Assembly: GCA_017506865.1 (NCBI GenBank)
Contig: JAFCMP010000512.1
Coordinates: 682,001-746,000 of the forward strand
Length of the DNA: 64,000 bases
Direction of reading: 5' to 3'
Source of the DNA: Tribonema minus
Lineage: Eukaryota > Sar > Xanthophyceae > Tribonematales > Tribonemataceae
Both the position numbers and the translations under genes were made by a program. Position 1 is the first letter of the stretch, and each line of letters starts with the position of its first letter. Positions 3,946 to 64,000 of the stretch are shown here, one piece after another. The notes under the pieces were generated by a model. It did no database searches and was not told the DNA's origin. It saw nothing but the letters and a program-made list of their open reading frames with translations.

Positions 3946-6824
3946 ATGTGTCGGATGGGGGCAGGCGTGCGGCCTTTGCAGTACCAGGGAGTGGAGCCAG
4001 CAATCAAGCGGCAGCCTCGGCATGGTCTGTTGGTGCTGCCGCTGGCGACCGTGTACTACGGCGTGATACAGTACCTGTGTCCACGGGATTTGGCTGCGCT
4101 GTCCTACACCTGCTCCAGCCTAGGGGGCGTTGCCACGGTGTCGGACTATTGGCAAACGCGGTGCCAGAGCACCCTTGAGATTTGCGATCTGGTACGCTAC
4201 TCTGGCCTGGAGCTGGCGCGGGCTACGGCCCTGCGTGCGCGGGCACTGCTGGTGGCTGACGAGTGCAGCAGCAGCGATGATGCTCTGGAGCACAACCTCA
4301 TCGTGGCTGCTCTGGGCTGCAGCAGTCAAGATCAGGTACTTCAAAACAATGGATCACAGCCAAGTATTGGTGGATAAGCAAGCACAGAGCTTCATTGAAA
4401 CAATGCAGGCCGTCTGCGTGTGGCCTAGTGCTGCTGTACAGCGCCTTCATTTCCACTGCTAGGCGCTCGGCTCAGACTAGTCTTCGCGCTGCAAGGTGCA
4501 TGTCTGTCACCAGCGCGCCAAATCTAGGCTCGTCAATCCCGCTCCCACCCTTCTCATGCCGCTATTGCTGTGCAGATGGACGAGTGCCCTTCCAACACGA
4601 TCACGCCTTCGCCGTGCTTGTGCGAGATGAGCCGCTGCCGATCCTCTTCCGCCAACGACTTGCTGAAGCTGCAGTCGGCCTACGCTCCGCCAGTTTCAAG
4701 CGCGCTGAGCCACCTTTCCATGGTGGCTTCGGTGCGGTGCCAGACACGCTGTGGATGTGCTGCGGATCGCCCCTGCTACTGGAGCAGCAGGTGCGCCGCC
4801 ATGTGCATGCCCTAGTGTGGAGCAATCAGTTTCGAGGCATTCTGCCCGCGCTCCCCGATCATGTTGCTCGGCCTTCGTGGGGACACGTCAATGCTGCGCT
4901 TGCATGCACTGTACCAGCAACCGTGACACGCTGTCTAGCTTGTCTGTCTGACTTTGTAGATTTGAACAGCGTGCCACCCCTCCCAGCCGTCATGGTCAAC
5001 GCTGTCAGTGGCAGTAGCCATCGCTGCTCTCTCGGCAGTCACAATCACGCCTGCCTCGACCTTTTCGTGCATGTCGCCGCACTGAGAGTATCCATCGCAT
5101 CGCTTCCGCCGCCCGTTGAAGCTCAACTTTTCCATCTTCAACTGTCACTTGCACTTGCTCCCCCTTTGCGCGCAGCGACACGCGCTCCACCGACACTGTG
5201 GACCACCTCACCTTCCAGCTCCGCAAGCCCACCCTGTCCCAACTTCAACTGTCACTTGCACTTGCTCCCTGCGCTTGCTCCCTGCTCGCAGCGCCACGCG
5301 CTCCACCGACACCGTGGACCACCTCACCTTCCAGCTGCGCAAGGGCACGAACGTCGTGACGCGCTTCGCGATCGCGCCGTACCGCGCCTTCTGGCAGCCG
5401 GACAGCCCTACTTATGCCCCCCTGCACGCGCGCATCGCCTTCTACCATGAGTCCCTCGGCGAGGAGCCGTACTATGTCAGTCCGAAGTTCGCTGTTAAGC
5501 CCACCATGGAGCTGCAGGTGGGTTGCGCCACGCTGTATACCTACCAACCTCTTGCTGGTGTGTTCTCGACGACTGCATGTACATATTGTACAGTGCATGG
5601 AGGCTGTTGAAGTTCTTGTTGCCTCACGGTATACCAATTCCGGGCCACTGCGAGCGAGCGGAGTGTTCACTGCTGACAGGTTCAATCCTGGTGGACATTT
5701 TAGAACGTTTGGTCCTCGTGGTCTCGTCAGACTGCCACCAGAAGGCTGCCACTGCCGTCACCTAATTGTGTGGAAATGCAATCCCTGTACCGCCCCTTCA
5801 AACAGCGTCTGACGGCGAGGCAGCGGGCCGCTTTGACTGCTTGTGCGGCACGTGAAGTGCGCTGGCAGCTGCCACTTGCAATACAACCATCCTCACCAAT
5901 CTTCAGCACCCCTGCGCTTCTCCCCTCACACACCATCAGACTGCATGCTGCTGCCCAAGCTTGGTGGTCCTGCTCTGGCGCTGCGATGCTCCTCAGCAAT
6001 ACCACAACAACACACCCCCTGCCCGGCACCTATTGTCCCCGCTGTCCCCCTCCCCCCTACAGAACTTCACCTTGCTCAACAGCCGGCCATGTGCTGCTGC
6101 TGCAGTGCTTCTCAGCAATATCACAACAACACACCCCCTGCCCGGTACACCCACCGTCCCCTCTGACCCCCCCCCCCCCCCTCCCCCCCTTCAGAACTTC
6201 ACGCTGCCCAAGCCGGCCATCTTCATGTGCGACGGCGCCGCGCGCGTCGAGCTCCTCGGCAAGCAGACGCGCCAGACGCTTGGCCCCGCGGCCGGCGCCA
6301 CGCACGACGCCTACTACACCTGCCTCTCCTTCGTGGGAGTCTACGGCGCATCGCTCGCGGCGGACGTGCGCTACGAGGCCGCTGAGCGCTGGCTCGCGCG
6401 CAACGTCGCCGTCACCGTGCGCCCCGGCGCCGTGGGCGCGCTCGCCGCGCCGCTGCGCTTCCAGATGTTCGAGTCGTCGTCCTTCGAGGCGCTGTTTGCG
6501 GCGTACGCGCGCCGCGTCGCGCGCCTGAGCGCCTGCAACCACGCCTCGCGGCAGCAGCAGCGCCGCGCGCCGCCGCCGCCGCAGCAGCGCTTTGCGGAAG
6601 GCGGCGGCAGCATCGGCAGCGGCGGCAGCATCAGCTTCGGCGGCGGCAGCGGCGGCGGCAGCGGCGGCGGCAGCGCGCTGGACGACGCCGCCGCCGCCGT
6701 GCGCGCGTCGCTGCGCTTCTCGTGCGGCGCCGACGGCCGCGCGCTCGCCGCGGACGAGACGCCCGCGCAGCGCTGCCCCCGCGCCGTGCACGTCGACATC
6801 ACCGCCGTCGCGCTGCTGCCTTAG
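3946..6824 (+). CDS. F-box protein, At4g00755-like
   Basis: Four exons: 3946-4335, 4576-4790, 5292-5517 and 6195-6824 (stop 6822-6824). They total 1461 nt, giving 486 aa with all phases matching. Residues about 28-85 form an F-box-like segment (LPLATVYYGVIQYLCPRDL, then YWQTRC), the usual Skp1-binding part of an SCF ubiquitin ligase. The rest follows the plant At4g00755 family: CYWSS (family ASYWSS), TDTVDHLTFQL, a PYRAFWQPDSPTYAPLHAR stretch, EEPYYVSPKF, then ARVELLGKQTRQ and YYTCLSFVGVYG. The C-terminus adds a Ser/Gly-rich tail of GGGS repeats encoded by a GGC run. The frame chosen for exon 2 is the one that keeps phase and gives YWSS; an overlapping longer frame (4395-5450) does not. Both later introns carry ghost copies of the next exon's start. 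The substrate is unknown. Confidence 0.8.
5136..5230 (+). repeat. Ghost 3' splice junction of F-box exon 3
   Basis: The polypyrimidine/AG and the first 50 or so exon bases of the junction at 5292 are repeated 116 bp upstream, with the ghost boundary at 5176. The copy reads ACACGCGCTCCACCGACAC and then diverges. Confidence 0.85.
5960..6110 (+). repeat. Ghost 3' splice junction of F-box exon 4
   Basis: The junction at 6195 (ttcag|AACTTCACGCTGCCCAAG) is duplicated 132 bp upstream (ctacag|AACTTCACCTTGCTCAAC, boundary 6063). The intron part (CTCAGCAATACCACAACAAC) is duplicated with it. Confidence 0.85.
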
Positions 6825-8558: not shown

Positions 8559-8571
8559 AGTGCAGATACAT

Positions 8572-9340: not shown

Positions 9341-9355
9341 TTAGTGCAGATACAT

Positions 9356-12700: not shown

Positions 12701-15700
12701 GGCAACACGCACACTTACTAATAGTCTACTAGTGTTACTAGCACTCCCATTCCTGTCACCCCAGTCCCAGTGTTGTAGTACGTTTCTTGCGGCCATTGAG
12801 CGGGCATCAGGTTCTGCTGCCGCCTCATTGCCCACATGCGCCTGAGGTCCTCAACTTCAACTTCAACAGTGCTCAACCCCCCCTTCCCTCACAAGGACAC
12901 CCCCCCCCCCCCTCTTGACACCCCCCAGGCCTAGTCCAGCGCCTCTCCGGCCTCCAAGCGGACACCCCCTACCACATTGTCGCCTACGTCTGGCTCCCCC
13001 AAGACTCGGTGTGCGGCACCGCGAGCGACAACATCAACTGCCCCTTCCTTTCGGTCATGGTCGACGGGGAGCCGGCAGGGGGGTCGGGGGCGATGCTGAG
13101 CGCTGATGCGGGGGCGTGGAATGCGGTTTCGGGCGCGTTTTACTTGACCAAGGAGCAGGTGGGGGCGGACGTCAGCTTTGCGGTGACGCACTTCACGCCC
13201 GGGGAGAGGGTGAGTTCAGATGGGGTACAGGTGCAGTACAGTAGGAGTTCAGTTGTAGACTGGCGGACAGCACAGAACAGACTGTAATAGCTTGCAGTCA
13301 CGGTGCGGTTGGAATGTGCTAAGGGGGAAGTTGACCGCGTGCAATACCGTGCGTCAGGGTTAGATTTACATGAAAAACGAATCACAAGATCGTAAAGCTC
13401 TAGGTGACAAGGGATGGTTAGCCGCAAGTGCCTTCCACCAATAATCGTGGTCGCCGCTGTTGGCCCCAAGTCAACATTAGGGCGATAGCTATGTGACGAA
13501 CAGACGGAGTCGGGGCAGGCATTGCCCCGGCAGTTACCCACTCAAGTTGATGCGGGCAGCATCAGTACAGTACAGTAAATGCAAATGCATACTTCGAAGT
13601 ATTATACAGGGCGAAGCAAAGTCACAAGTGACGCTTTGTACTTGCAGCCTGAGTAGAACTGGTGGATGCTACGAGGTATGAGTCCCCATTTCCCCCACTC
13701 CTCATCTTGTCTGCAGCCTTCGCACAAGGCACGAGTGTTACTGGAGGCGTATACTTCAAGTATGTGGCACAGACATCCAGCCGCTGCTGTGCGTGTGCAA
13801 GGACCACAAGAAAAGCTTGTGTGTAGTGATGCCGTGTCACTGGCAATTACCGTATGCTTACCTGTGAAGCGGCCAATGATGGACATGTGTCACTGTCGTC
13901 ACGTGCGGCGCACCGCAGCAGAAATGTCAGCGATGGTAGCACTAGCGTTCTGCAGCGTTTTGCTGCAATTTGCATTGCTCGTGTTATCTAGCGCCAATGC
14001 GTGCCACAGTGTACATGCTATGGCCAGCACTGCATTGGGATGCAGCCCTGCGCAGAGCATGCATTACGGCGTCCAATCAACAAATGCGCAATAGAGCTAG
14101 GGGTAGGGTGAGAAGTGCTAGGGTCAGGGATGGAGTGAGCGAATGCCGGTGACGCCTTGCGTTACTCGTATACATACATACGGGTGCCATTTTCTAGCAT
14201 CTCCCAGCGTACTTCCGGTGTTCACGCGTTGGCTGCAGCCCACGCCTATGGACACAATGATGGTCCCAGTCGCTTTCTGCTCTCGCGTCATTGTGCCTTT
14301 GAGCAGAAACCCAGGGAACGAATAGAAAGGCTTAGAGCCTGTGTGCCTCACGCTCGTTGTCAGGGCTATATGCTGCACAGCGAGGATCTGGAACTGGATT
14401 GACTTTGCAACCAATCTGCAATGAAGGCACTCTGAGATGCCTTCTCTGATAGCTGCCCAACTGCCATAAAAGAGGCGCTGGTGTACTTCAAGTTTTACTC
14501 AAATTGGTACTTCAACCAACTCGAATGTGCCAGCACCAGTGCACTTAGTGGCTACATGCGTTGTGTTTATTTTCTTCATCCATTGCGCGCATGCTGACTC
14601 ATGTGTGGGCGCAATCTGCAGGTGTGCGTCGACGATGTTGGGGTCTTCAGGTCCAGCATAGAGGAATTCCGCGCATATAGCGACAAACTCATCAGCGCCA
14701 ACCACAAGCGCGACGTGGTGCTGCGGATCGGTGAGCCATCAAACTTCAACTTGAAGTATGCTGACCATACTTGAAGTTGAAGTATGCTGTTGTTTCATGG
14801 CTGCCTACTGCTGGTGTCGATGTGCGTTGTGAACCAGTGAAACGCAATAAAGGCTGTGAGCCTGGTCAATATCGCTGCTGATGATTCATGCATGTGAGAA
14901 ATGCAGATCAGGCCTAGCTGTGGGCCTCTGTTAATATTGCGCGTCATTCATGAGCCAGTGACTGGGAGCACAGTGCCAGGCCCTCGTGGACTGGGACTCG
15001 AGGCTTGCAACTTGTGAGCCATGACTCGTTTGCAACTGACTCGAGTACGTGATCATCATTGTAAAACAGGCAAAGGCGGAAAGGGCGGCGAGCGCGTTCA
15101 CATCATGCAGCTTGTGACTCATGACTCATGAGTCATGACTGGTGTACAACTGACTTGGGCGCGTGCGCATCATCGTAAAACAGGCAAAGGCGGGAAGGGC
15201 TGCGAGCCCGTTGGCATCATGCAAACTCGTGACTCACGACTTTTGACTCATGAATCATGCGCAACTGACTTGAGCATGTGTGCCGCATCCTACAACAGGC
15301 AAAGGCGGGAAGGGGAGAGAACCCGTACGCATTGTGCAGACCAAGCGCGCCTTCCCCATTGGCACGGCTGTCAACGCGGCATCCTTAGATGGGACGCCTG
15401 ATGGCAAGAAGTACAAGTGAGTTGTGCGCTGATTGGTGACTGTGACGAGGGGGAGTCACATGTTGAACCTGTAGCATCAACTTCAATGGCAGTGTGGCGA
15501 CGCAGCATTGCGGCACACAGAAGAAACGATGTGCTTTGGGCACGTCCAGCTCACGTGCTGTGCGCAGATTCAGCGCGCGTGGCTGCAGAGAGTGCTATCA
15601 GCTTCAGCTGTTCTGTGCGCAGCGGCGTTGCACACTTTGCGCAGCATCATATGACCGGAAGCATCAATGCTGACTGTGAGCGCAGCCTGCGCATCGAAAC

Positions 15701-18700
15701 ATGGCTCACTGACTGCTGAATGCAACATGCTTATAGCCTGACTGTTGGTATCTGCAGCCCCTGCTGTCATTCCTTACATGTGTACGTCAAAACATTTTCA
15801 GTATATGTGTTGATGTAACTTGCAGTTATGCTGTACAGCATCTAAGGAACTCTCGTAGGCTTGCACCTCTCTGCGCCTGATGACTGCGCTCTTGTGTACT
15901 GTCCTTGTACTGACATATATGGTAATTGAGCTTCGTTGTGTACTGTTACTGTTTGCAATGGCAGAGCGTTCATCAAGGAGCACTTCAACTACTGTGCCGA
16001 CGAACAGCAGCTGCTTGGAGCCTGGGGAAGCAAGATGTGGAAGACAGATGTGAGCTTTTAGCAGGTGCCGGTCGTCTTGATGAATGACGATGATGCCACT
16101 TTACTATAAATGCTGCGCTGCTCTGAGCTGCAGAGCTGCTCCACAGAAGGCAGGTCAAGTCGCACAACCTTGAGTAGGCCGCTGTATTGTGCCCAAGCAA
16201 GGCGTTGCACCAAAGGGCTGCAGCTCTGTCTGCTGTGTGTTGGTAATTGCATCCATGCACACTTACCTACGCACAGTTTCTTGACTTCCGCGATTCGCTG
16301 GGCTACAAATGCACAGCCTCTAGTTGGTTGGCCTGAGCCACTCAACACGTACACGCCGCAAGTCTCTCCAACTTCAGCTTCACACACTACTGTGGAGCGT
16401 CTCTTCTGATTGTGACTCCATACATGCCTACCTACCCCCCCCCCATCAGGTGCTGGACTTCTGCGATTCGCTGGGCTACAAGACGCGCGGGCACGCCGTC
16501 GCAGGCGAGCTCTCCGACTGGAGCAACGACAGGTGGCTCGCGCAGATACCGCGCGATGGGTCGCCCGGCAGCACGCAGGCGGTGAGCGCTGTGCTGAGCG
16601 CTGCTCTACTTACACTTCAAGCTGCTGCTCTATTGAAACGTCAAAGTTGAAGAATGCATGTTGGAGTTTAATTGGTATCAAGCGCAATGGGTCGCCCGGC
16701 GGGTCGCCCAGCAGCAAGCATGCAGTTGATGCTGCTGTATTGAGCGCTGCTGTACTTATGATCTTGTATTCATAGCAGCCCCAAGGTGGGCTTGATGCGT
16801 TGGATAAGATTGCAAAAACTAAAATCGGACGGGCCCTTAGAGCCCTGCGTTGCAGGCTTGTACTAAACTCATGGGGGGCAGACACAGCGGCACCCAGTCT
16901 GAGCCACACCTATCGTAGCCGATGTCTCCATCTCTTGAGCGAAAACGCCGGAGGACCGCGGTTATGCCTCTAGTATACATTTGGGCCAGAGGCGCCCGGT
17001 CCTCGATTCCTTGCCTAAGCACGCCGCTGACGTGCCTGGCCGAGGTTCTCTTTCTTGCGTGTTCAAGCAAACGATCTACAGTGTGCCCTGATGCTATCCG
17101 TATCCCCATGTTCCAATATCCCCTGCTGCTGCCCAAAGCCGTATCCTCACCACACGCGACTCCGCAGCTCCTGCTCACAGCCAGCATCTCCCATCCCCTT
17201 GCTGCCTGATGCACCCTCGCCGCCATCAGCGCCACCGCGAGCGCTGCCGCACCTCTCGGTGCTAACGAGCAGAGAAAGAACAGCGCTGCTGTACAGTTGC
17301 CGCGCCACAAAGCCGATGGCTTGGTGCATCTTACAATATTAGAGCTGTAGAAGAGTCATACAAAACCGAGCATTTGCAATCAGAGTACGGGCACATCGCG
17401 TCACGCGCGCCGGTGCATGCACGGGCGGCCACGTGATCATCATTGTATACATGAGCTGGTTATTGACAAGTCTGATAGACCTGTCAACAACTGCTGTATC
17501 AAGCGCTGCTACACAGTTGCTGCGCCACAATGCTGATGCTTGATGCATCCTACAGTTTGAGTCCTGTAGAGGAGTAATACAAGACCGAGCATTTGCAAAT
17601 AGAGTGCGAGCACATCGCGTTGTGGATGCAGCGGTGCAGACATGGTGACCACATGATCATCGCAACCAAATCAGTCAAGTCTGGTAGACCAATCAACAAT
17701 TGGCGTGCCGCGCTTGCCCCTCAGCAATTCTACGGGCGCATCAAGCTGTGGATGCAGCACTACCGCAACCGTGTCGTGGATATTGAAGCCGCCAACGAGA
17801 TGCTCAACTCGCGCTTCTACGAGTACGTGCTTCCCTGCGGAAAAGATGGTGAGCTCTCATTTTGTGTACATAATGCGTAGTTCGACATTGTTGATTGGCA
17901 CACTTCAATAAAAATCACAATTGAGATATTCAACACAAATTTCGTTTCTACCAGCAAGATGCGCTTTGTAAGAGTTCATGCTTCCTCGTGGGAAAATTGG
18001 CGAGTTTTGTTTCCAGTAAAAGTTGTGTAGTCCAACAACACATCATAATGAACTGCTCAACTCGCGCTTGTATCAGTACGTGATTCCATGTGGCAAAGAC
18101 GATGAGCTTCCTTTATTACAAATAGGGAGTGCAATGGCACACTTCAACAACCCAATGCTCAAACTGATAAGTTCAATGGCACGTTTCAACAACTCAATGC
18201 TCAACTCAACTGCTTCAAACAGCACTTGCACTTTCATCAATGAGTACATGCTAGGTATGAAGGGAGCGTACTTCAATGGCGCACTTCAACAACAGCACTA
18301 CCGCACAAGTACTTCACACTCTCTTCAAAACGCCATCTCAGTATGTTCTGAAGCTGGTGCTCACACTGTCAGACATCTGTCTAAAGAGCACTGCCTGTGA
18401 GGTGCGATGTACCACGCATCGCTGCAACCTCACAAAATGACCATCTAGCAGGCAATATCCTGCGGCACGGTGTAAGCGCTGCTGCCTCTTGCTCTGTGTC
18501 GCGGCACTCACCGTTCGCGTTGCAGCACCCAGCGTCCATTGCGGTGATTTTTTTGCATGCTGCAGGGTCGTGCCTAAGCATGAAAGTGCCTTAGTCGAAC
18601 GCTCCTTTGAGCACCAAGGGATGCTGAGCCACGATATGTTCCACGCGCATCAAATGAATTCACGAAGGCTATTTCGCAAAATTCATGATTGAGCCAGTCG

Positions 18701-47722: not shown

Positions 47723-47948
47723 ACTGTGCCGACCAAAAAAATACTACGTAGCAGCATTGTGAATGTTTTCCAGAGGCGCACTGATGTGTGGCGTGATACC
47801 AAATGCACACCATCGGCACGAACGCTTTCGCGAGCACTGTGCCGACCAAAAAAATACTACGTAGCAGCATTGTGAATGTTTTCCAGAGGCGCACTGATGT
47901 GTGGCGTGATACCAAATGCACACCAACGGCACGAACGCTTTCGCGAGC
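47723..47948 (+). repeat. Two-copy tandem repeat, 113 bp unit, nearly identical
   Basis: Units at 47723-47835 and 47836-47948 each start ACTGTGCCGACC. I see a single mismatch (CCATCGG versus CCAACGG). This is the youngest-looking tandem duplication in the window and shows that the process is recent. Confidence 0.95.
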
Positions 47949-48800: not shown

Positions 48801-48845
48801 TAGGGTTAGGGTTAGGGTTAGGGGTAACCCTAACCCTAACCCTAA
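48801..48845. repeat. Head-to-head telomere-like repeats
   Basis: Three TTAGGG-type units are followed at once by three CCCTAA units, meeting at GGGGTAACCC. The orientation is that of a telomere-telomere fusion, but only 45 bp long. Confidence 0.92.
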
Positions 48846-49904: not shown

Positions 49905-52900
49905 TCAGAGGGGCCCGTTGCCGTGCTTCTTGGGGAAGGAGAGAGGCTGCTTGTTGCGCAGCGCCTCGAGGTCCTCGCACAGGCGCGCGCGCGTAGACGC
50001 GGGGTCGATGACCGCGTCCAGGAAGCCGCGCTTGGCGGCGTTGAGGGGGTTGCAGAAGAGGTCCGCGTACTCGGCCTCGCGCGCCGCCACGTCCTTGCCG
50101 CGGAAGATGATCTCCACCGCGCCCTTCGCGCCCATCACCGCGATCTGATTGAGCGTTGCGGGGGGGGGGGGGGAGTAGGGTTATAATGGCAATCTGATTG
50201 AGGGTAACGCGGGGGGGCTGGGTTAGGGTTGGGGGGCAGGTGTGTGGCTGGTGTCTATTGACGTGTCATGCAAACGTCAAGTCTGATATGTACCAGGCGA
50301 CGACCTTGCCGTGGAAGATGATCTCCTGAATTGCGCAATTTAAGGTATGGTGGTGGAGAGAAGCGGGGGGGTGCGGCGAACTTATTTGTGAAGAGGGTGA
50401 TCCCAATGGCGCCGTGTCTGCGTGCTTCAAGTAGCATCTATTGGCATGCCATGCAGATAATGCGGATGATGCGTATTCAGGTGTACTCATTACACATATA
50501 CACAAGCGCCATGTGTTACTCAGAGCCTTAGCTTCAGGTGAACTAGGTCTACAAGGCAGCTGTGTGTGTGGGTCGCGGAATTGGCAAGTCACAGTTGAAC
50601 TTGTCGCGGTGCTCACCTCGCCACCTGGCCACGAGTAGTTGACGTCGCCACGCAGGTGCTTGCTGCTCATGACGTCGTATGCGCCTCCGTACGCCTTGCG
50701 GGTGATGACGGTGATCTGTTGGAACGGCAACAACATATGTGGAACGATGTACATTGCTTATTAGTCTACAGAGATCATCATGTATGCCAACCGAAAGCAC
50801 AGCAGTTAAGGAACAAATCGAAAGAAGCGTCAGATGCGCTCAGTTGGCTGTTGAGCCATGCTGATACTGGTATTGGTGTGGCTGTGAGGTTGCGGGTCAA
50901 AGGGGTCACATATAGCAATATGTTTGTACAAGTGACAGCTGCCGCAAGGAGAATAAGCACAGATGCATATTCTGGAGCTATTCATGCCCAGAAAACCTGG
51001 CAGGAGCTGTGGCTGATCAACAAGAACACATGAATCAGTGGTTTGCTTGTAGCATGCCTTATTTAGGGTTAGGGTTGGCGAATACTGGTCAATGCCACAG
51101 TGGGTACTAATGGAAACGAATCAAAAGTTTGTAGAGCTCTAGGTGACAAGGAGTGGTTAGCCACAAGTGACTAATAATGCCTCAAGAAGCTTCATGTCAA
51201 TATGCCGAACGAGAGCGCACAAGAGGCAACCACAAGACCCCTCCAAAATCAGACTTCAACTTCAATGTACAACGCGGAGTGCCGCATCTTGCGCAGCGCG
51301 CACCGCGGGCACGGAGGCCTCGGCGTACGCGTACAGCAGCTTGGCGCCATGGCGGATTATACCCCCGTACTCCTTTAGTAGTGCGCTAGGGCAGCTTGCA
51401 AAGCAAAACAGTTGTGCGCTATGGCATCTTGCAAAGCGCGCACCTTGGGCACTGTGGCCGTGGCGTGCGCGTACAGCAGCTTGGCGCCGTAGCGGATGGA
51501 TCCCCTTCTCTGACCACAGACTCGCACACGAGGCTGATTTACATCTACAGTAGACTACCACACCAATGTCGTCTAAAACATTCAAGGCATGCCATCTCAC
51601 GCACCTTGGGCACGGTGGCCTCAGCGTAAGCGTACAGCAGCTTGGCGCCGTGGCGGATGAATCATACACAATATATTGGTCACGTCGACCAACCCAGGGG
51701 CTCTAGCGACACAACAGAGGCAACACCAAGCACGTCCCTGCCGCCTCGTTTAGACTGCACTCGTTGACACATAATCCAAACCGTAGCAGCGCCCACCTTA
51801 GGCACGGTGGCCTCAGCGTACGCGTACAGCAGCTTGGCGCCGTGGCGGATGATGCCCCCGTACTCCTGGTCGGTGCCGGGCAGAAACCCCGGCACGTCCA
51901 CAAACGTCAGCAGCGGGATGTTGAAGGAGTCGCAGAAGCGCACAAAGCGCGCCCCCTTGGTGCTGGAGTTGATGTCCAGGCAGCCCGCGAGGCTCGAGGG
52001 GTTGTTGGCGACGACGCCCACGGTGCGGCCCTCCATGCGGCCTGGGGTAGGTAGGTATTATGGCACGAAGGGAGGCGCGGTGAGTGTGTGTGTGTGTGCG
52101 TGTGTGTGTCAGCAGCTACAGCAACAATGTACTATTAGACACAGGAGCTACTGCATTGAGTGGTCAATGCATACAGTACGGCCCTCCATGCGGCCTGGGG
52201 TAGGTAGGTAGTGCAGCGCGACAAGTGGGAGCAGTGAGGGTGTGCGGAGGTGCAAATTGTGCGTGTGTGTGTGCGCGTTTGTGTGTATGTGTGCTGGCTT
52301 TTGCAGCTACAGCATCAATGTAAACGCATGAACTACTACATTGAGTGGTCGATGCCCACATTGCGGCCCTTCATGCGGCCTGATATATATATAGTGCGAC
52401 AGGAGGTGTGGTGACATCGACCGATGACCCTGATAGATCACCACAGTGACCTAACTTGAACCTTAACCCTAAGCAGAGCACACCAAGGTGCCCCGCGCAT
52501 CACACAACACTGACGCCAAACTAACCCTAACCCTTAACAGCTCCTGACGACAAGCGCGCGCACACTTACCGAAGCCCATGATACAGACCTGATAGAGCAC
52601 CACCGCGCAGCACCAAGACAACCTAACCCTAACTCGCACCTGATCAACACACACACACACCTAACCCCAACCCTAGCAAGAGCACTCACCGAAGCCCACG
52701 ACAATATTCTTGGCGTAGTCTGGCATGATCTGGTAGAAGTTGTTGTCGTCGAGGACCTTGGACACAATCTCCACCATGTCGTACGGGATGTTGGGGTCCT
52801 GCGGGATGATGCGGCGCAGCGCGGGGATCGCGCGCTCGCGCGTGTCGCAGGTGCTGCGCACGGGCACCGCCTCCCTGAAATTACAAGTCAAAAGATCAAT

Positions 52901-55900
52901 GCAAGAGGGGGGAGAAGCGTGTAAGGAGGTTGAAATCTTCGAGGGGGGGGGGGGGGGGATGAAGGCGCGTGTCGCAGGTGCTGTGCACGGGCACCGGTTC
53001 CCTATAATCATATTCAGAAGGGGGGGGAACCGTGTGAGGATGGCAAAATGGGGGGGGGGGGCAGCCTCTGAGATCAATTGAAGAGGGGCAGGAAGCGCAA
53101 GTGAGGACGACAACATGTTCAGGGGGGGGGAGGGGGGAGGGGGGCTGGGGTGGAGCAACGGCGCAGAGGACGCCTCGCCAGCCAAAGCGTGTTATGAGTG
53201 TCACGGTGCATGCGCTGTCAAGCGCTGATCGAAAAAGAATTTGCTGAGGCTGTTGAGAGTGACCAATCCTGTTGAGTACATGCGCACACTCCCACGCCTA
53301 GATCCCCACACGACGATAGAAGAGCGGCAACCGCACCTGCGAATGCGATGCAGCACAGCGCTGCGCTCACAGACGTGGTTCGCAGCGTTCAACGTTTTGC
53401 TGCACTTCAAGCGTGACGCACCCCCGTCGGACAGGGGCAGCAAAGCGCACGTGCGCGCGCCGCTTTGATCACTGCCACAATCATCAAACCATCGCTCATC
53501 GCTCAGCGATCAATTGAACTTCAGGTGTGACGCACCTGTTGTTGCCTAACCCTTTCCCTAGCCCTAAGAGCTCGCACGCCGCCTCGAGCGCAGCCAGGTC
53601 ATCAGCCATTGCTCATCGCTCAGCAACCAACAACACTTCAGGTGTGACGCACCTATTGGAGAAGGGCAGGAAGTCAAAGAGCTCGCGCGTCGCCTCGAGC
53701 GCTGCCATAATCATCAACCACTGCTCATTGCTCAGCAATCGACTACACTGCAGGTGTGACGCACCTGTTGGAGAGGGGCAGGAAGTCACAGAGCTCACGC
53801 GTCGCCTTGAGCGCGGCCAGGGTCATTGACCGCCGCTCATTGCTCGCGACTAATTCTACTTCACGCGTGACAAACCATACTTCGTGTGTGACGCACCTGT
53901 TGGAGAGCGGCAGGAAGTCGAACAGCTCGCGCGCCGCTTTGAGCGCGGCCAGGTCGTTGTCGCGCGCCACGTGCGCCACGCCGCTGACGGAGCAGTGCGT
54001 GTCCGCGCCGCCGAGCGCCTCCTGCGTAACGGTCTCCTGGGTAACGGTCCTGAGGGGGCACAACGCAGATGAAGTTCAAGTAGGTGAGGACGGTGAGTGC
54101 GTGCAATATAAACCGAAATAAAGCAAGATTGGAGTTGCTCGAGGTGGTGGTACAAGGAGGCGGCCCAGTCAGACAGCGGCGGTGGGGGCTTTGAGGCAGT
54201 GCACAGAAATCTACCCGAAACATGCGGGCACATCACAACAGTGCCAGTTCCGCAGTGTGACAACGAACCAAGCTACCTATGCGTAGGGGATGACGCACTC
54301 CTGCTGACCAGCAAGTTTACGAACTACCCATGCACAATTTGATCGATCGTTGCGCGCGCACGGACGTCAGTATGAAAGCAATGAAAGAGTCTAACTCGGA
54401 ACTCACTTGACGACGTCAGGCCCGGTGACGAACATGTAGGAGGAGTTGCGGACCATCATGATGAAGTCGGTGAGCGCGGGAGAGTAGACCGCGCCACCAG
54501 CGCAGGGGCCCATGATCAGTGAGAGCTGGGGGATCAGGCCACTGTGACAGCGAGAGGAGCAACGCAAGCGGGACAAGCGAACAAGGGGTTAGACACCAAC
54601 TCTCCAGGGGGTTTGCATGGCAGTGTTGCACACTTCTGATGCAGTGCCCTTCTAGGTAACGCTAACGCCACCACATGCTGCGCAAACTTTTGATGCGTAG
54701 CGATGATGCGCTGATACAGCTCATTGTGGTGTCCATGTCCTCTGCACCGGCCTTTGATGAGCACATCTTCCTTGCATCATAGTACGGCCAGAGTGGTACC
54801 ATGACTTTGCCACCGGAGCCATGGAACGTAGCACCATACTTGGCTGCACATACTCAGTTCCTTGATGGCATCAATACGTAGGCTCGGCGGTCGGTTGTGC
54901 AAATTACGCATCCTGTAACAACCAGCCCTGCGTTGCCAATACCACTTAAAGCTTGGATTTCAAAAAACATTGAAACAAAAAAATGTTGCCCGAGTCAAAA
55001 AACTGCGTACCTGGCATCGACGTTGCGCTGGAACACCTCAGCGTAACCGGCGAGGGAGTCGACGCCCTCCTGGATGCGTGCGCCGCCCGAGTCGTTGAGG
55101 CCAATGACAGGCGCGCCGTTGTGCATCGCCTGCAGCAATGATGATGGCCAGCACAATTGTTCTTGTTGAAAAACGAGGTGTGTATATATACATGTAGCAT
55201 GCGATCAGTGCAAGTGTTGTCGCAACAACAGGCGCAAACTTCAAGCTCCGAAGTCAACGACGTACGGTGAGCCAACAAGCATGAGCTCAAGGGAGAAGGT
55301 TGTGTGCAGATACTGGCAGAGCAGGTAACAAATGCTCAGCAAGGGGTGCTCCCTATTGAGCAGGCTCGCAGAACCGTGATGCTGAAAATTACCGGACTCG
55401 AATCCTGGATCGCGTAGTCAACTGACGTAGGAGGACGTTACACCCGTACTCGAACCTTGTATCAACACAAGCACAAAGGCTACAGATGAAGCACATGCGC
55501 ACGTCAATTGAGCTAGGCCCATTGGCACATTCGTACCTGATCCATGACCTTGCAGATCTTTTCGGCGTGCGCCTGCCCCAGGGAACCTCCCCACACAGTA
55601 AAATCCTGGCTGAACACGTAAACAGGGCGGCCATTGATGGTTCCCCTGCCAGTGACGACGCCCTCGCCGTACGAGTGGTCCTTGTCCATGCCGAAATCCG
55701 TGCAGCGATGCGTCTTGAGGGCATCCAACTCACGGAAAGAGCAGGGGTCGAGGAGAACATTGAGTCTCTCCCTTGCAGTGAGCTTGCCCTTGGCGTGCTG
55801 CTTGGAGATGCGTGCCTCGCCACCTCCCATGCGGGACTGCTCCTCTGCTTCCGCCAGGCGTGCCCTGAACTGCCTCTTGATAGCGGGGATGTTGAGAGGT

Positions 55901-55995
55901 GCAGCGGGTGCTGCTGCAGTTGCCATGCACCGGATGCATGTGGCTGCAAGCTGGGATCGGGGTGCCAGGGCCGCCGCCTTTCGTGCTGCCAGCAT
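49905..55995 (-). CDS. PCCB: Propionyl-CoA carboxylase beta subunit, mitochondrial
   Basis: Eight exons in phase (transcription order): 55995-55537, 55129-55011, 54541-54407, 54049-53897, 52874-52690, 52041-51797, 50715-50617 and 50144-49905. They total 1635 nt, or 544 aa, close to human PCCB (539). Residues 1-30 look like a mitochondrial presequence ([14 protein letters not shown]). Landmarks: [101 protein letters not shown] and the PCCB-type C-terminus KKHGNGPL. The enzyme is the carboxyltransferase half of propionyl-CoA carboxylase, making methylmalonyl-CoA with a biotinylated alpha subunit not seen here. Introns flanking exons 4, 5, 6 and 8 carry ghost junctions. It is divergent from TMEM17 across 257 bp. 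Confidence 0.95.
50160..50340 (-). repeat. Ghost 3' splice junction and inner-exon copy of PCCB exon 8
   Basis: On the + strand, AATCTGATTGAGGGTAACGC (boundary 50193) copies GATCTGATTGAGCGTTGCG (real 50144) at 49 bp. At 50295-50335, GACCTTGCCGTGGAAGATGA copies exon bases from about 50090, roughly 200 bp away. Confidence 0.8.
51105..51180 (+). repeat. Dispersed repeat B, copy 3
   Basis: AATGGAAACGAATCAAAAG, then GAGCTCTAGGTGACAAGG and GGTTAGCCACAAGTG match 13370-13440. Lies in PCCB intron 6. Confidence 0.72.
51280..51670 (-). repeat. Three ghost 5' splice junctions of PCCB exon 6
   Basis: On the + strand the real exon edge is 51797. Copies with edges at 51605, 51444 and 51304 each contain GTACAGCAGCTTGGCGCC and GGCAC.G.GGCC. 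Spacings are 192, 161 and 140 bp. Up to about 80 exon bases are retained per copy. Confidence 0.94.
52165..52385 (-). repeat. Two ghost 3' splice junctions of PCCB exon 6
   Basis: On the + strand, GGCCCTCCATGCGGC|CTGGGG (edge 52194) and GGCCCTTCATGCGGC|CTGATA (edge about 52379) copy the real edge at 52041, at 153 and 185 bp spacing. The same exon also has downstream ghosts, so both of its ends have been duplicated. Confidence 0.92.
52960..53110 (-). repeat. Ghost 3' splice junctions of PCCB exon 5
   Basis: On the + strand, GTGTCGCAGGTGCTGTGCAC, then GGGCACCGGTTCC|CTATAAT (edge 53001) copies the real edge 52874 at 127 bp spacing. A weaker third copy (GCAGCCTCTGAGAT) lies near 53070. The flanking G-runs are repeated too. 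A short ghost of the exon's other end is at 52568-52585. Confidence 0.85.
53405..53835 (-). repeat. Four ghost 5' splice junctions of PCCB exon 4
   Basis: On the + strand the real exon edge is 53897 (gacgcac|CTGTTGGAGAGCGGCAGGAA). Copies have edges at 53765, 53653, 53536 and 53422, so spacings are 132, 112, 117 and 114 bp. The copies keep GGCAGGAAGTC and GAGCTC.CG, and they become weaker with distance from the exon. Confidence 0.94.
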
Positions 55996-56252: not shown

Positions 56253-59200
56253 ATGAGTTCAGTTACTTCAACTGAAAATTGCCGGTGTGAACTGTCGTGC
56301 AAGCCTGCAGCTGCCATGTTCGGATCTAGAGACAGCAGGGGTGGATATGAAAGAGTGCCTGAGCATGAAGCATCAAACGAGCACAGCGGCTCGCACGAGG
56401 GCCACGAAAGGTACCAGAGCGAGACCAGCTCCAGCCTGCCGGCGCAGGTGCTGATGTACTTCAACGTGATGTTCAGCATCATATACTTCATCATGGAGGG
56501 CAGCCTGGTGATCATGAAGGTGCGCAACACAACAGTGGGCCTGGCATGTCATTTCAGCAGCACTTGCAGAAGCAAAGGAAAGGGGCGTTGCAGCGCGCTC
56601 TAAAGTCTAGAAAAGTCGATGCTCTACGTATCCAGAGATGGCAATGCCAATGCCAGCAGCTGTTGTCTTATTGCATCAGACAGCGTAGGGCACCAGTGTG
56701 ATGCCCAGCAATGCAGTGCTGTCGTTTCGATCAGTGCACCTCCTGCATGGATTGAAAACAGCTATGTCGAGCTACACGGCTGCAGCCCGAAAGCGTGATC
56801 ATGATCACCGTTTTCCATGACCACATCAAGCGGCCAACACCCACATGAACTCATAGCTGTACTGGACTTGTCCTCATGCCAGCCCAAGGGAGTCCGTGCC
56901 TTATGTATTACGAGGGGTAGGTTTCGTTTCACTCCTATGCGACAACCTAGTCTGCGCTGCGCTGGACACTGGCGCTGGAACACAGCCCTGCATCCGTGCT
57001 CCGCGTGTATACGCCATTGTTGTACCGGCGTTGTGACTAGCAGATACATCAGTGTACATGCAGCAGCAGTCACTCACATGCACCTGCCGGGTTAGGTGTT
57101 GACGCTCACCTCTGAGCAGCACTATAGCCACAACTGAGTCGCTGCCCAACTGAGTCACAACACCGAGGTACTTTTGCAGCTGACCCAACGTCCTATGGCT
57201 GGAACGGTATCTGAGCGTCCGGGACAGAAATGACCCCTTCTCTTGTGATGGCCTCTTCTGCCATGAGGGTACATGCCCTTGGCAGCTACTGCAATGCGAC
57301 AGCGCAGCCGTGCCGCAGCATTGCCAGCGCGCGCATGTGACAAATCATTGAAGCACTGAGCATGCCATCCTGGCAGTGACGCGCGAGCTACAATAAATGT
57401 AAGGCTACAGTAGCCTTGCGTCTTGGCGGCCCCACCGCAGATGCGACAGCGCAGCGCCTTAAGTGCCCGCAATGCCATACTCTTCAAGGTCTGAGACTTG
57501 ACGATTACACTCAACCACAAGTACGTGAACTCTCAAACTACCCCTTCAGCGTGCGATCGTGTGGACATAACACTGAATGCTGCCAAGAGCTCATGCTCAT
57601 GCCGCCATGGTACTGAGCGCTGCCAACGTGGCTGCTGGAGCGCACGTACGCCTAACCCTAACCTTACCTCACCCCTTCATTGCGCGATGCTTGCAAATTT
57701 CCCCATGATGGTATGCGCTGCCATCATGGTCAACAGCACACAGAAGTACATAGGTCGCCATAATGGCGAGTACTGCCAACGCGGGAACTAGAGCGCGCAT
57801 ACTTGAGTCCTCTACAATCTCCCCCTTGACACATGCTGATTGTCGCCACGATGCTGAGCACATTCAATGTGGCTGCTGCAGATGAGCCAGTACGTGTTTG
57901 ACTCGCCTCTGCCGCGCACATACACTGATCTCGCCCTTCAGCACGCTCTGAAATGACCGCCCCCCCTTGATGCTGAGCACTGTCCACCTTAGATGAGCCA
58001 GCACTTGGTTGACACGCCTCTGCAGCGCACATATACAGAACATGCCCTGCAGCGCGTGCTGATTTATTGCCCCCCCCCATGATGCTGAGCACTGTTGACG
58101 CTGCTGCTGGCTTTGGTGCCTTTTTCACAGCGTTTTACTCATCAATACTGTTTTATCTTCGTTTTAAGACATTCTTGTGTTATGACAGATGAGCCGGTAC
58201 GTGTTCGATTCGCCTCTGCAGCGCACATACACTAAACTCGCCCTTCAGCGCACGCCGCATTACCGTTGCCTCATGATGCTGAACACTGTCACCCGCATTA
58301 CCGTTGCCTCGTGATGCTGAGCACTTTCATTGTCGCTGTTGTAGATGAACCAGTACGTGTTTGACTCGCCGTTACAGCGCACATACACTGATCTCGCCCT
58401 TCAGCACGCTTTGAAATGACCCGTCCCACCATGGTGCTGAGTCTTTTGTTTGTTATTGTCACCGTGGCTGCTGCAGATGAGCCAGTATGTGTTCGACTCG
58501 CCGTTACAGCGCATTGTGTGCGCTCCCGCTTTCATGATCTGGGCGCTGGTGGAGGTGTTCCGCCTGTACTTTGGCTACTCCGGCAACATTGAAGAAATGG
58601 TGCCACAGGTGCGTTTCGTGTGTTTGATCACTGCCCTCACAACTTTCATTGAGGAATGCTTCAAAACTTCAATTGTGAAGATGTTCAGGGCGACTCTTGG
58701 CGTACTTTTGCGCTGTGGGTCCTCAATAAGATTAACCATGTGAAGGGGGGGACGAAGGGGGTAAGTATTTAGTATTGCGCCGCAGGATTGCAATGCGAGC
58801 GCATGCATGCGCAGCCCAGCGACACGGTGAGCGAATCAAAGGGAAAGCCCGTGATTTATCCAGCGCATTCATGATCATGTCAGCTCTATTGAGGGGATTC
58901 TTCGTACTCGAAAACCCTCTGAGACGTTGGTCTTGGTCTTGCTCGGCCTAACTTCAACTTGGCTCGATGATCACAGGTGCTCGTGCATTCTTGCTTCACT
59001 ACAAGTGAGTCGCTCGCCATTGCTGCCTTTTTGGTATTCCAGGGGTGTACTCCTGACCATGTTCCTGTACGCTGCTCACGTGGATCATCCGCTTGCGCGC
59101 ACCTACGTCGATGACAATGACATTGTGTCTCTCCTTACCCCAGCTTGTGGGTACAGCATTCGCTTCCTCACACGCGCTACCACATGATACTTGGTTTCTG

Positions 59201-59873
59201 TCGCTACATGTGCGGATGATCCATGAAACATACACTGTGCAGAGCTGTAATGCTTAATCACATGCCGTGAGTCGGATGCTGACGATGTGATGGTTCCACC
59301 TACAGTTACGGTTAGCAGATAGTACTTGAGTATGCTACAGGCACTCCCTGATATCATTCGTTTCACCTGTTGCAATAGCAAACACTACTTGCGCTCGCTA
59401 CAATACAGATACTCACTCATCTCATTGAGTCATTGTACTCGACTCTGCTGCCACTTTCGCATTCCCCTCTCGCCTCACTACAGATGCCTAACCCTAACCC
59501 TAGCAGATCCTACTTTGTGCTTGCTACAGTGCAGGTGCTCACTCATCTCAACGTACCTACCCGACTTTGCTGCCCCCTTCCCCCTCCCCCCCCCCCCCCC
59601 CCCCCCCCCCAGATGACAGCATTCGTCCTCATGACCGTCTTCCCGCAGTCTCTCGTCGTTCTCTACCTCACCACATTTCAAGAATTCGTCTTTCCGGCAG
59701 ACGCGGCAATGGGCGGAACGATGCTCGCGCTGTTGGCAGCAGAAACAGTTGCCGGTGCGGGCGCGGTGCGCTCCATAGCGCGCAAGCGCACGGCGCAGTT
59801 CCACAGAATGGTCCAAACGGAAGGAGCGTCACCAGTGGCAGTTACCGTCGGCGGGCGCCCCCACCAGGACTGA
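56253..59873 (+). CDS. TMEM17: Transmembrane protein 17 (ciliary transition zone)
   Basis: Three exons in phase: 56253-56519, 58477-58608 and 59613-59873. They total 660 nt, or 219 aa (human TMEM17 has 198). The N-terminal 60 residues are hydrophilic. SSLPAQVLMYFNVMFSIIYF then gives the first membrane segment, with family wording S.L.LQ..LYFN. Exon 2 carries ALVEVFRLYFGYSGNIEE and VP, matching the family's IEAIRLYLGYVGNLQEKVP. Exon 3 supplies the last two hydrophobic segments (FVLMTVFPQSLVVLYL and LALLAAETVAGAGAV) and a basic tail. TMEM17 works with the B9/MKS complex at the base of the cilium. Its presence implies a flagellate stage. The intron before exon 2 carries four ghost copies of the exon 2 start. 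Internal ATG 56316 is an alternative start. Confidence 0.85.
57860..58415 (+). repeat. Four ghost 3' splice junctions of TMEM17 exon 2
   Basis: Boundaries 57882, 57993, 58189 and 58345 precede the real 58477, so spacings are 111, 196, 156 and 132 bp. Each reads ag|ATGA(G/A)CC(A/G)G.AC.TG.TTGA, then CGCC and GCGCACATA. The ghosts share a continuation (ACTGATCTCGCCCTTCAGC) that the real exon lacks, so they are more like each other than like the exon. Confidence 0.95.
59385..59500 (+). repeat. Ghost 3' splice junction of TMEM17 exon 3
   Basis: The unit from GCTACAATACAGATACTCAC to cactacag|ATGCC (boundary 59484) is repeated as GCTACAGTGCAGGTGCTCAC to ccag|ATGAC (59613), 129 bp apart. A CCCTAACCCTA tract sits at the copy's edge. 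Confidence 0.82.
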
Positions 59874-61689: not shown

Positions 61690-64000
61690 CTACCGCATGT
61701 GGGTGAAGTCCATCAGGCGGTAGTCGTGTTTGACCTGCACAGGCAAGGCGTCACCCATACACATGTTTCATTAGTGCTAGCGTGCTACGTATGCGTAGGG
61801 GCGCTTGGGCGCGTGCGCGCAGCAGCAGCGAGCGCCCGTTGATTCAAGCTGCACAGCCCTTAATAGTTGCTGCATTGTGCAATGCTCGCCATATAGTGTT
61901 GACGCACAGAGAAAGGTGGCTGCAGCAGCCATGCTCTGTATACTGCAGGTGTTGCGTGATCGTCAAGTTCGCAGAGAGAGACTTGCAGACGGTGCTGGCG
62001 CGCAGCGGTCCTGCAGGTGTAAATGTCATTGCTCAGCGCGAAGAAGGAGGAACCACCGACATCACGGAGACTAGCGACTACTCATACGAAAGTGCCTGAA
62101 TACCCTGCACCAGACGAACGCTGGACGCACACTCAAATCATCACGGAAGCTAGCCAGAACCCATATAAAAGTGCCTGAATACCCTGCACCAGACGAACTC
62201 TAGACGCACACGCGACATGACTCACCAGCGTGCTGAGCTGTTTCCGGACGCCTTCGTACAGCCTCTTGAAGAGGAATATGTCTATCTGGCCGCGCAGGAA
62301 CTCTACCATGTAGAGGCCCGTGCAGCTGCCCCCCTGCCCCCCCCCGCCGCACGACAGCACCTCCTTGTCTGCAGAGGGCACAGAAAGTGAGGATCAAAAG
62401 TGTCAGAGACTGGGACGTGACTTGTTGCGAGGACCACATGCAGCTATACAATATAAAAATGATATCCCTGCCCCCCCCCCCCCGCCGCACAACAGCACTT
62501 CCTTGTCTGCAGAGAGCTCAAAAAGTAAGGATTAAAAGTGCCAGTCACTGAGACGAGATTTGTTGCGAGAACAACTTGAAACTTACAACAAAGACTGGAT
62601 GAGAGTCGCCAGAAGAACAGGTAGCATCGGTGACTGGAAAGAGAATGGTCATGTGACAGCATGAGGAGTGTGGCCGCAGCATATGCATGCATTGTCATCC
62701 TGCCGCCGATGGATGGCACCTGGTTTTCTTTGTGCAGTTTACAGGGGCAACAGCAAGCAAGTTGGAAGCAAGATACTTGCTGAAGCAAATCAACGATTAT
62801 TACTGTACGCACATGCGGCAGCTGTACGCTCGCATGAGAGGAATCGCGAGCATCAGTATGTATTTGCGGGCCGCACGTGATCGATCTGGGTACTGCACTC
62901 TGCACCACAAGCTGCTGCAGGCTGAGCATCGACACGGCTACCAGGCAGTACACAGTTGAAGTTACAGTTTCAACTGTTGGCAGCGAGCGCGCACGTTTGA
63001 AGTGCGAGTTAAAGGCTGGCAACAAGCGAAGACGCACAGTAGAACCGCCCCTGCGGAAACGTGACTACTTGATGGCAACACAACTTCAAGCTGAACATTG
63101 CGACCACCACCGCTGACGTACAGTAGATCTGAGCAGTCACCCGCATGAGCCTCCACAGCTGGTGAGAGTGGTTTGCAATGCAGTTCATGGCGTCCACGCC
63201 CATCAACGTTGAAGTCATTCTGAAGTTCAAGTTGAAGTATTCAGCAAACTGCACGCACCGTACTGGCGCCCCTGAGCGGCTGCGGGCCGCATCAGGTATA
63301 TCTGCACGGTGCATACCAGCACGCCCCCGCGCATGACCTCCAGCCTGAAGTCGCGCCAGTGCACAACGGCCTTTTGCGTGATCTTCTGATAGGGGTAGGG
63401 CAGCGGGTGGGGGTCCTCGTTGATGATCGCTGCCGCACGCAGGGGGGGGGGGAGCAAGGGGAACCCAACGGTCAAAACTGTAACATTGTGGAATACAACC
63501 TTCCTCCTGAGCGTACCTCAAGCATGGCAACGTGCCTTTGTGGCAAGCACTTCCTGTCGTGACCAAATTCAGCACAATCTAAGCTCAGCCCTTGGCTGAT
63601 GTCACCCGCTCACAACAAGCAGGCTAAAATGTGTCACCACACGCAAAATGTGTCACCACACGCACACATGCGTGTGGTGACACATTTTAGCCTGCTTAAC
63701 ACCTTTGCAGCACCTTTATGGTAGATACACACGAGCTGAACATTGCGATGACCGCGCCACCTGCTCTGTTTCATCAGTGCTTAGCTCTCGTGGGTCCAAC
63801 GCACAACTGCTGCCACTACAGCACAATAGACACACACCTGACACCTTGCGCAGCACCTCCGTGGCGGGCACGTTCGTCGTGAACCGCGACGACCGCGCCA
63901 CCTGCGGGCCGCGGCACACAGGCGGCACCTCCTCCCCCCCTCCCTCACCAGTACCCCCCGCATTCCCCTTCCGCGCTGCCTCGCCCCCCTGCCCCCCCCC
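61690..64000 (-). CDS. Protein kinase C-terminal KA1-like domain, 5' partial
   Basis: Four exons in phase (transcription order): 64000-63838 (open to the window edge), 63429-63259, 62368-62226 and 61734-61690 (stop 61692-61690). The spliced C-terminus reads SSRFTTNVPATEVLRKVS, then YQKITQKAVVHWRDFRLE, VLVCTVQIYLM, GLYMVEFLRGQIDIFLFKRL and YEGVRKQLSTLVKHDY. This fits the kinase-associated KA1 fold of MARK/AMPK/CIPK/CHK1-related kinases, whose last helix carries '..F.R..gd...FKrl...v...L'. The domain binds membranes or autoinhibits the kinase. The catalytic domain lies beyond the right edge, so the exact subfamily is open. Exon 64000-63838 has no visible upstream limit. Confidence 0.72.
62040..62215 (+). 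repeat. Two-copy tandem repeat, about 79 bp
   Basis: AAAGTGCCTGAATACCCTGC, then ACCAGACGAAC.CT.GACGCACAC occurs twice (about 62090 and 62170), just beyond the 5' splice site of kinase exon 62368-62226. Confidence 0.85.
62440..62590 (-). repeat. Ghost 3' splice junction of the KA1 exon
   Basis: On the + strand, CAGCACTTCCTTGT|CTGCAGAG (edge 62506) copies CAGCACCTCCTTGT|CTGCAGAG (62368), 138 bp apart. The duplication includes about 70 intron bases (AAGTGAGGATCAAAAGTG) and the C-run. Confidence 0.92.
63617..63697. repeat. Perfect 29-bp inverted repeat (hairpin)
   Basis: The left arm 63617-63645 (AAGCAGGCTAAAATGTGTCA, then CCACACGCA) pairs exactly with 63669-63697 around a 23-base loop. The loop itself repeats AAATGTGTCACCACACGCA. 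It lies in the kinase intron. It may be a small foldback element or the result of a replication slip. Confidence 0.92.

Follow-up and report, generated by a model that had tools for sequence, protein, structure and literature searches.

Introns in a 64-kb window of Tribonema minus carry diverged local copies of their own splice junctions

Transposons are a usual explanation for the lengthening of introns. A stretch of 64,000 nucleotides from Tribonema minus (Xanthophyceae), positions 682,001 to 746,000 of the forward strand of contig JAFCMP010000512.1 (GenBank assembly GCA_017506865.1) and referred to here as the window, raises the question of whether introns can be lengthened from their own ends. 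A reading of the sequence had proposed that introns in this DNA hold diverged direct copies of segments that span the adjoining exon-intron boundary (the original prediction). We find that such copies, called ghosts below, are present beside junctions of every gene modelled in the window, and that duplications within genes are concentrated at splice junctions. The reading that we favour, with a probability of roughly 60%, is that introns here grow by repeated local direct duplication of 75-250 bp focused on intron ends, and that ghosts survive because the exon-proximal splice site is the one chosen.

Six genes, with 41 exons and 35 complete introns, were modelled from coding signal, protein homology, reading phase, and GT/GC-AG splice sites, that is, from sequence only; all densities given below rest on this single 64-kb window and on these models. 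Introns are 304-1957 bp long and internal exons 52-281 bp. Reading phase was consistent across the tested exon pairs with the sole exception of Fb/Fc; pairs starting with D1 and E1 and the pair Fc/Fd were left out of this test. Pfam confirmed four of the six genes, which are as follows.

5292..6824, forward strand: gene A, exons A3 and A4; partial model with uncertain upstream exons, 199 residues searched against Pfam without a match
12929..25633, forward strand: gene B, glycosyl hydrolase family 10 (GH10)-like, 13 exons (B1-B13), neither end fixed; Pfam Glyco_hydro_10, 1.7e-13, residues 311-454 of 503
27839..38042, forward strand: gene C, class-3 lipase, 11 exons (C0-C10), 5' start not fixed; Pfam Lipase_3, 5.8e-28
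49905..55995, reverse strand: gene D, propionyl-CoA carboxylase beta (PCCB), eight exons (55995-55537, 55129-55011, 54541-54407, 54049-53897, 52874-52690, 52041-51797, 50715-50617, 50144-49905); Pfam Carboxyl_trans, 1.4e-190
56316..59873, forward strand: gene E, TMEM17-like, three exons, putative start; Pfam Transmemb_17, 1.3e-25
61690..63901, reverse strand: gene F, exons Fa-Fd; partial model lacking an exon between Fb and Fc, two peptides searched against Pfam without a match

Residues 32-544 of the PCCB model align to the mitochondrial propionyl-CoA carboxylase beta chain (PDB 7ybu_C, E 4e-224). The lipase introns following C1 (29763) and C3 (31856) apparently begin with GC rather than GT.

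The presence of junction copies was examined by comparing 50-bp queries from exon ends with their own adjoining introns at 70 junctions. At a score of at least 36, 16 of the 70 junctions were positive and yielded 27 copies, whereas introns of other genes gave 0/1836 matches (top control score 32) and the reverse strand of the own intron gave 0/70. Queries centred on the junction were positive at 19 of 70 junctions (control, 4/1836), and 75-bp queries with a cutoff of 33 identified 32 copies at 17 junctions. Junction A3, whose upstream intron is open-ended and which was tested apart from the 70, scored 85. For some single cases the exon side alone is weak (A4, score 30; C3, score 22). Junctions A3, A4, B8, and C3 contribute further copies beyond the strict set, and the predicted total of at least 37 copies is plausible. 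Chance matching is rejected by the exon-end controls, and the junction copies are confirmed as real.

The placement of the copies agrees with the original prediction that copies of 3' splice sites lie only upstream, and copies of 5' sites only downstream, of the real site: matches on the wrong side (donor ends in the upstream intron or acceptor ends in the downstream intron) numbered 0/63 at a score of 28. Introns of the same gene that do not adjoin the exon produced a single match in 486 comparisons (score 31). The nearest copy lies 77-253 bp from the real junction, which bears out the described spacing of mostly 90-210 bp, and the splice dinucleotide, said to be often kept, is retained as GT, GC, or AG in 24 of the 27 strict copies. 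These 27 copies diverge by 2-23% from the real exon end. Both C7 ghosts of the strict search carry GC where the real donor has GT.

Duplication arrays were catalogued by a blastn self-comparison of the window (E ≤ 1e-3, repeat distance 40-1000), with an array counted as a junction array if it includes at least 8 bp of real exon. The census comprises 31 arrays, two of them outside modelled genes. Among the 29 in genes, 20 span a real junction (13 acceptors and seven donors, distributed over all six genes), which bears out the proposed figure of about 19 junctions in six genes, and nine are internal to introns. Relaxing the cutoff to E 1e-2 gave 21 junction and nine internal arrays. The 20 junction arrays and the nine arrays that lack exon sequence are listed here; coordinates of real junctions are in parentheses.

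5132..5343, forward strand: gene A, A3 acceptor (5292), one ghost, 107-bp unit
5980..6220, forward strand: gene A, A4 acceptor (6195), one ghost, 119-bp unit
14996..15341, forward strand: GH10 B3 acceptor (15299), two ghosts, 114-bp unit
16274..16481, forward strand: GH10 B5 acceptor (16450), ghost 16280-16308
16550..16758, forward strand: GH10 B5 donor (16581), ghost near 16693-16758
17801..18108, forward strand: GH10 B6 donor (17848), ghost 18054-18099, without GT
18853..19040, forward strand: GH10 B7 acceptor (19013), ghost 18892-18917, without AG
19068..19351, forward strand: GH10 B7 donor (19143), ghost 19295-19344
20011..20248, forward strand: GH10 B8 acceptor (20228), one ghost
29518..29695, forward strand: lipase C1 acceptor (29670), ghost 29577-29602
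31528..31763, forward strand: lipase C3 acceptor (31753), identical 29-bp junction-centred copy 31528-31556 with flanks at chance level
33326..33861, forward strand: lipase C6 acceptor (33830), ghosts near 33349, 33508, and 33638
34893..35283, forward strand: lipase C7 donor (34921), four ghosts at 34971-34998, ~35070, ~35160, and 35219-35247
35995..36909, forward strand: lipase C8 donor (36047), ghosts 36167-36214, 36352-36400, 36520-36564, 36681-36726, and 36826-36865
51284..51867, reverse strand: PCCB exon 6 donor (51797), ghosts 51605-51654, 51444-51493, and 51308-51353; exon parts 86-96% identical, spacers barely alignable
52012..52382, reverse strand: PCCB exon 6 acceptor (52041), ghosts 52350-52379 and ~153 bp upstream of the junction
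52838..53003, reverse strand: PCCB exon 5 acceptor (52874), ghost 52965-52996
53403..53953, reverse strand: PCCB exon 4 donor (53897), ghosts 53765-53814, 53653-53702, and 53426-53468, plus a weaker one in between
57850..58513, forward strand: TMEM17-like E2 acceptor (58477), ghosts 58345-58381, 58189-58225, ~57991, and 57882-57918
62326..62588, reverse strand: gene F, Fc acceptor (62368), ghost 62468-62506, 142-bp unit
17282..17661, forward strand: array without exon sequence, lying at a distance of 63 bp from the B6 acceptor
21531-21852, 22510-22753, 22627-22889, 32606-32852, 35731-35878, 52893-53138, 59376-59589, and 62060-62211: the other eight arrays without exon sequence

A near-complete copy of the 64-bp exon Fa was also seen in the next intron (63699-63760, score 28); by eye, its donor is apparently not GT.

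Alignments suggest that the copies arose mostly by tandem duplication. In 12 of the 20 junction arrays the matched stretch covers at least 85% of the repeat distance (alignment length divided by offset, from the self-alignment), as in head-to-tail diverged tandem units, and whole-unit alignments of C6, C7, and D4 have exon and intron parts repeating together. Outside modelled genes, a 113-bp tandem duplication with one mismatch (47723-47950), similar in unit size to the intron units, is among the least diverged local duplications of the window; its near-identity implies that the duplication process is recent.

The ghosts look like dead copies without clear coding constraint. Changes private to a single ghost, counted in arrays with at least two ghosts, show no preference for a codon position (16:15:21 for positions 1:2:3, P = 0.55). 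All differences between real exons and ghosts are distributed 37:24:77 (P = 6e-8), and the simplest reading is that ghosts drift while the real exon changes mostly at silent sites. The claim that most copies are out of frame in their exon part did not hold: 24 of 32 copies lack an indel in the aligned exon part, and there are no stop codons in 409 aligned codons. On these figures, and because the ghosts are partial exon ends, whole-exon pseudogenes were rejected.

Duplications are not spread evenly over the genes. Circular shifts of exon positions within each gene placed 10.5 ± 2.3 of the 29 arrays at junctions, with a maximum of 19 in 5000, as compared with the 20 observed (P < 0.0002). A simulation with random placement, neutral decay, constrained exons, and a similar score cutoff, in which unit lengths were entered by hand from the self-alignment, put 20-30% of arrays at junctions. 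Arrays without exon sequence have a mean edge distance to a junction of 45 bp against 157 expected (P = 0.0002), and seven of eight are on the acceptor side; the list of these arrays was compiled manually, with two overlapping B10/B11 arrays merged, giving eight instead of nine. Within 225 bp of an acceptor, 34-40% of intron bases are duplicated; the share is 24% at 225-300 bp and 0-25% at all other distances and close to donors. The units also reach less far into exons than random breakpoints predict (P = 0.00015, from rough extents collected by hand).

Duplication was also counted over tiles of the window. At a score of 36, positive tiles numbered 212/1246 in introns, 10/106 in exons, and 17/1017 outside genes, a class that is defined by these models and may include unmodelled exons or transposons, which could lower its count; control comparisons with distant regions gave one, zero, and zero, respectively. 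At a score of 33 the number outside genes was 25/1017, and the 1 kb holding the 113-bp duplication gives 10 positive tiles. The original prediction explained the copies by a high rate of local duplication tolerated only where splicing can discard them. The tandem units and the lack of clear coding constraint fit that explanation, but duplication is not uniform: intergenic DNA would tolerate copies too and has few, so a splicing filter alone is insufficient. The comparison that the original prediction had put forward as its own test gave a divided answer. The raw match rate of random intron tiles does not differ from that of exon ends (92/583 vs 16/70, P = 0.17). Junction arrays account for 65 of the 92 positive tiles, however, and with these arrays excluded the junctions are richer (27/461 elsewhere, P = 2.5e-5).

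The median length is 1008 bp for introns that have junction arrays (n = 16) and 536 bp for those that do not (n = 19; P = 0.01), and array spans make up 27% of intron bases; both the spans and the set of array-bearing introns were taken manually from the self-alignment. As predictors of arrays, intron length was significant in two of three groupings (P = 0.048 and 0.005) and exon G+C content in one of two acceptor groupings (P = 0.01), while none of the tests of acceptor G+C content or donor composition was significant. Donor and acceptor arrays showed no tendency to co-occur on one exon or intron.

These observations can be accommodated by the following sequence of events. Duplication would be focused most clearly on the 225 bp that precede the 3' splice site and the first tens of bases of the next exon. 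A duplicated unit that overlaps the junction would leave a partial exon end and a splice site on the intron side. Such a ghost would have one splice site where a complete exon has two, so that exon definition would presumably pair the exon-proximal real sites and discard it; under intron definition, such ghosts should be harmful. Exon definition is expected to operate where introns are long and internal exons short, as they are here. Duplications that lie within an exon or span all of it are probably purged, as judged from the absence of such copies; exon-centre queries matched in 0/11 cases at a score of 28, and exon halves compared with each other reached a best score of 18. As ghosts drift and the real exon stays fixed, each ghost would remain recognisable. 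The least certain step is the mutational cause. Staggered nicks or breaks near intron ends, followed by fill-in and joining, are a candidate first step; arrays may later grow by unequal exchange, and exon-anchored exchange may both enlarge and homogenise them. We also consider, as a tentative and rather doubtful idea, that splice junctions, acceptors above all, are hot spots at which a transcription- or splicing-coupled lesion or RNA-templated repair repeatedly duplicates the junction region.

Several results weigh against growth by focused tandem duplication. In eight of the 20 junction arrays the match extends over just 14-66% of the repeat distance. Ghosts of the C8, D6 donor, and E2 arrays, three of the six that were aligned, differ from one another by 0.12-0.15 in their exon parts and by 0.20-0.56 in the flanks, and the intron-side extension score is at most 9 in seven of 27 ghosts (95th percentile of the null, 9.65); flank decay in excess of exon decay and such short extensions are not predicted by plain neutral tandem decay, and the abrupt C3 copy is likewise unexplained by it. 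The absence of stop codons (2.7 expected, P = 0.06) hints weakly at constraint on the ghosts, and by our estimate silent drift of the real exon at an equal rate would give a smaller third-position excess than the one observed. Per intron, the duplicated share of the 5' half (0.13) and the 3' half (0.26) did not differ significantly (Wilcoxon P = 0.07). After exon masking, 10 arrays paired a real-junction flank with a ghost flank, four were ghost-ghost remnants left from junction arrays, and 10 were internal to introns by manual reading (automatic labels gave seven touching and 17 internal); the focus is weaker, still above the ~1/5 expected at junctions by random placement. Near-exon sequence may outlast deletion, since deletions into the exon are lethal, and this may add to the junction bias. 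Pyrimidine content, C runs, and G runs at acceptors do not predict arrays.

Other processes could have generated some or all of this pattern. Where near-identical cores stand beside chance-level flanks, as in C3 and PCCB exon 6, short templated copies or later gene conversion are suggested. It is possible that, after a first duplication, a conserved exon keeps overwriting the exon part of its ghosts through exon-anchored gene conversion or unequal exchange while copy number shifts and spacers drift. This would account for the PCCB exon 6 donor array, where exon parts differ by 10-14% and flanks by 45-58% and where ghost 51605-51654 is identical at 48 of 50 positions beside flanks of 0.55 and 0.27 identity, and for the same trend among ghosts in C8 and E2; the pattern is not seen in C6, C7, and D4, where ghosts diverge similarly in exon (0.28-0.37) and flank (0.20-0.45), and neither the first duplication nor the arrays without exon sequence would be explained. 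Insertion of short templated stretches during break repair that copies nearby DNA, in place of tandem duplication, is an unlikely source of the short abrupt copies. In its favour are C3, which is identical at 29 of 29 positions with flank identities of 0.57-0.58 below the 95th percentile of the null (0.62), and the eight arrays with partial matches; the 12 arrays built of full head-to-tail units and the borderline flank similarity of some partial ones (B5 acceptor, 0.63; B6 donor, 0.62) argue against it. We consider it improbable, too, that local duplication is uniform and neutral under a splicing filter, with the conserved exon merely keeping junction copies recognisable for longer, even though raw match rates are similar for intron tiles and exon ends and exon and intron parts diverge about equally between ghosts in three of the six arrays (C6, C7, and D4). 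The simulated detection advantage of junction arrays is at most ~1.6-fold (0.30 vs 0.19), which is too small to yield 20 of 29; moreover, arrays without exon sequence adjoin junctions as well, and equally tolerant DNA outside genes has few arrays.

Far less probable is a function for the ghosts as alternative exons, decoy sites, or splicing enhancers under selection. The scores of 16 of the 27 ghost sites reach at least the 10th percentile for real splice sites, which means that real sites and ghosts must be distinguished by position or context, and most ghosts retain the dinucleotide. A function would also fit the lack of stop codons in the 32 copies, the high identity among ghosts (0.87 over the first 10 intron bases, 0.81-0.86 over the exon part), and the B7 ghost at 19295-19344, which by eye has an upstream CAG and an open frame. 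Against this, the private changes even over codon positions give no sign of coding constraint, real sites and ghosts are less alike in the first 10 intron bases (0.71) than in the exon part (0.74-0.86), and distances from the junction are not fixed. An assembly artefact, through false haplotype duplication or read errors, was rejected as extremely improbable: most copies are several percent off the real exon end, spacings differ, and the copies are confined to the intron side of junctions.

Related processes are known from other organisms. A potato gene contains a tandem duplication across an intron-exon boundary (PMC4974935). As in Tribonema, the duplicated segment runs across the 3' end of an intron into the beginning of an exon, the parent copy supplies splice signals, and a small piece of old exon becomes intronic. 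The potato case is described as one event that made a new intron, whereas here dead copies, often several per junction, lie in existing introns at 20 of 71 junctions. The AGGT tandem-duplication model of intron birth (Rogers 1989 and Hellsten 2011, as described in PMC4974935) likewise has splice sites supplied by local tandem duplication. Unlike the units of that model as described there, the units here consist of exon plus intron and lie inside existing introns, and none of 27 ghosts is at the opposite intron end, as would be the case if copies of the same exonic segment flanked the intron on both sides. Mammalian decaying or pseudogenic exons, defined by a frameshift or stop in duplicated exons and reported in 0.4-1.0% of genes (PMC2718932), share with the ghosts the decay of duplicated exon sequence in or near genes; the ghosts differ in being partial exon ends with one splice site, and they are found in all six modelled genes. 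Small tandem duplications also arise when break ends are filled in by CST-Pol alpha and then joined (PMC8355091). Short segments are similarly copied head-to-tail nearby in that process, but the text consulted describes insertions of <100 bp and names no splice-junction focus, as opposed to units of ~75-250 bp at intron ends here. Introners, which copy themselves into many genes, are a fast source of intron sequence (PMC9860276), as the arrays appear to be. Unlike introners as described there, exon-end copies match only their own adjoining intron, and introners were rejected at a score of 36 on the absence of exon-end matches in other genes (0/1836) and on a single match among 583 intron tiles, each compared with one random intron of another gene. 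A single junction-spanning duplication, the AGGT model, and decaying exons are known; among the matches listed in open-access literature, which leaves most subscription journals uncovered, no genome with such a density of junction arrays and no acceptor-end focus was found.

The window contains further repeats. Short TTAGGG/CCCTAA runs occur in introns and outside genes (36071, 43102-43137, 48806-48845, 51063, and 30076), and at 48806-48845 the two orientations face each other. Repeats of this type gave no sign of driving duplication (21 and 18 single units vs 15 and 15 expected from composition). Taken by themselves, gene content, G+C content, and the few tandem repeats of this type would suggest a chlamydomonadalean green alga; AACCCT is named as a telomeric motif of Chlamydomonadales (PMC7617258). 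A dispersed element of ~110 bp is found at 9225-9334, 29072-29185, and 47186-47292 (89% and 74-75% alike, with a 26-bp identical core in two copies); it twice sits directly after a long open reading frame (8636-9220 and 45904-46989) and resembles a retroelement 3' end. The frame at 45904-46989 has a putative GIY-YIG-like stretch, for which Pfam gave no match. Two adjacent paralogous stretches (40563-41935 and 42509-43776) are 69-89% identical in pieces at an offset of ~1.9 kb, and a second short dispersed repeat is present in and outside genes (10772-10882, 13370-13462, 23781-23814, and 51108-51172). Rfam at gathering thresholds gave no matches in the window, and scans of viral and prokaryote contigs for related DNA by an exact repeat core gave no hits.

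Arrays of local duplications at splice junctions would provide a countable and datable record of intron growth. They would also offer a natural experiment on splice-site choice, with up to six near-identical sites from which the splicing machinery selects one, and raise the testable question of what makes intron ends prone to duplication. If splice junctions do prove to be hot spots, intron growth in this lineage would follow from the biology of splice sites, and not from transposons or duplication in general.

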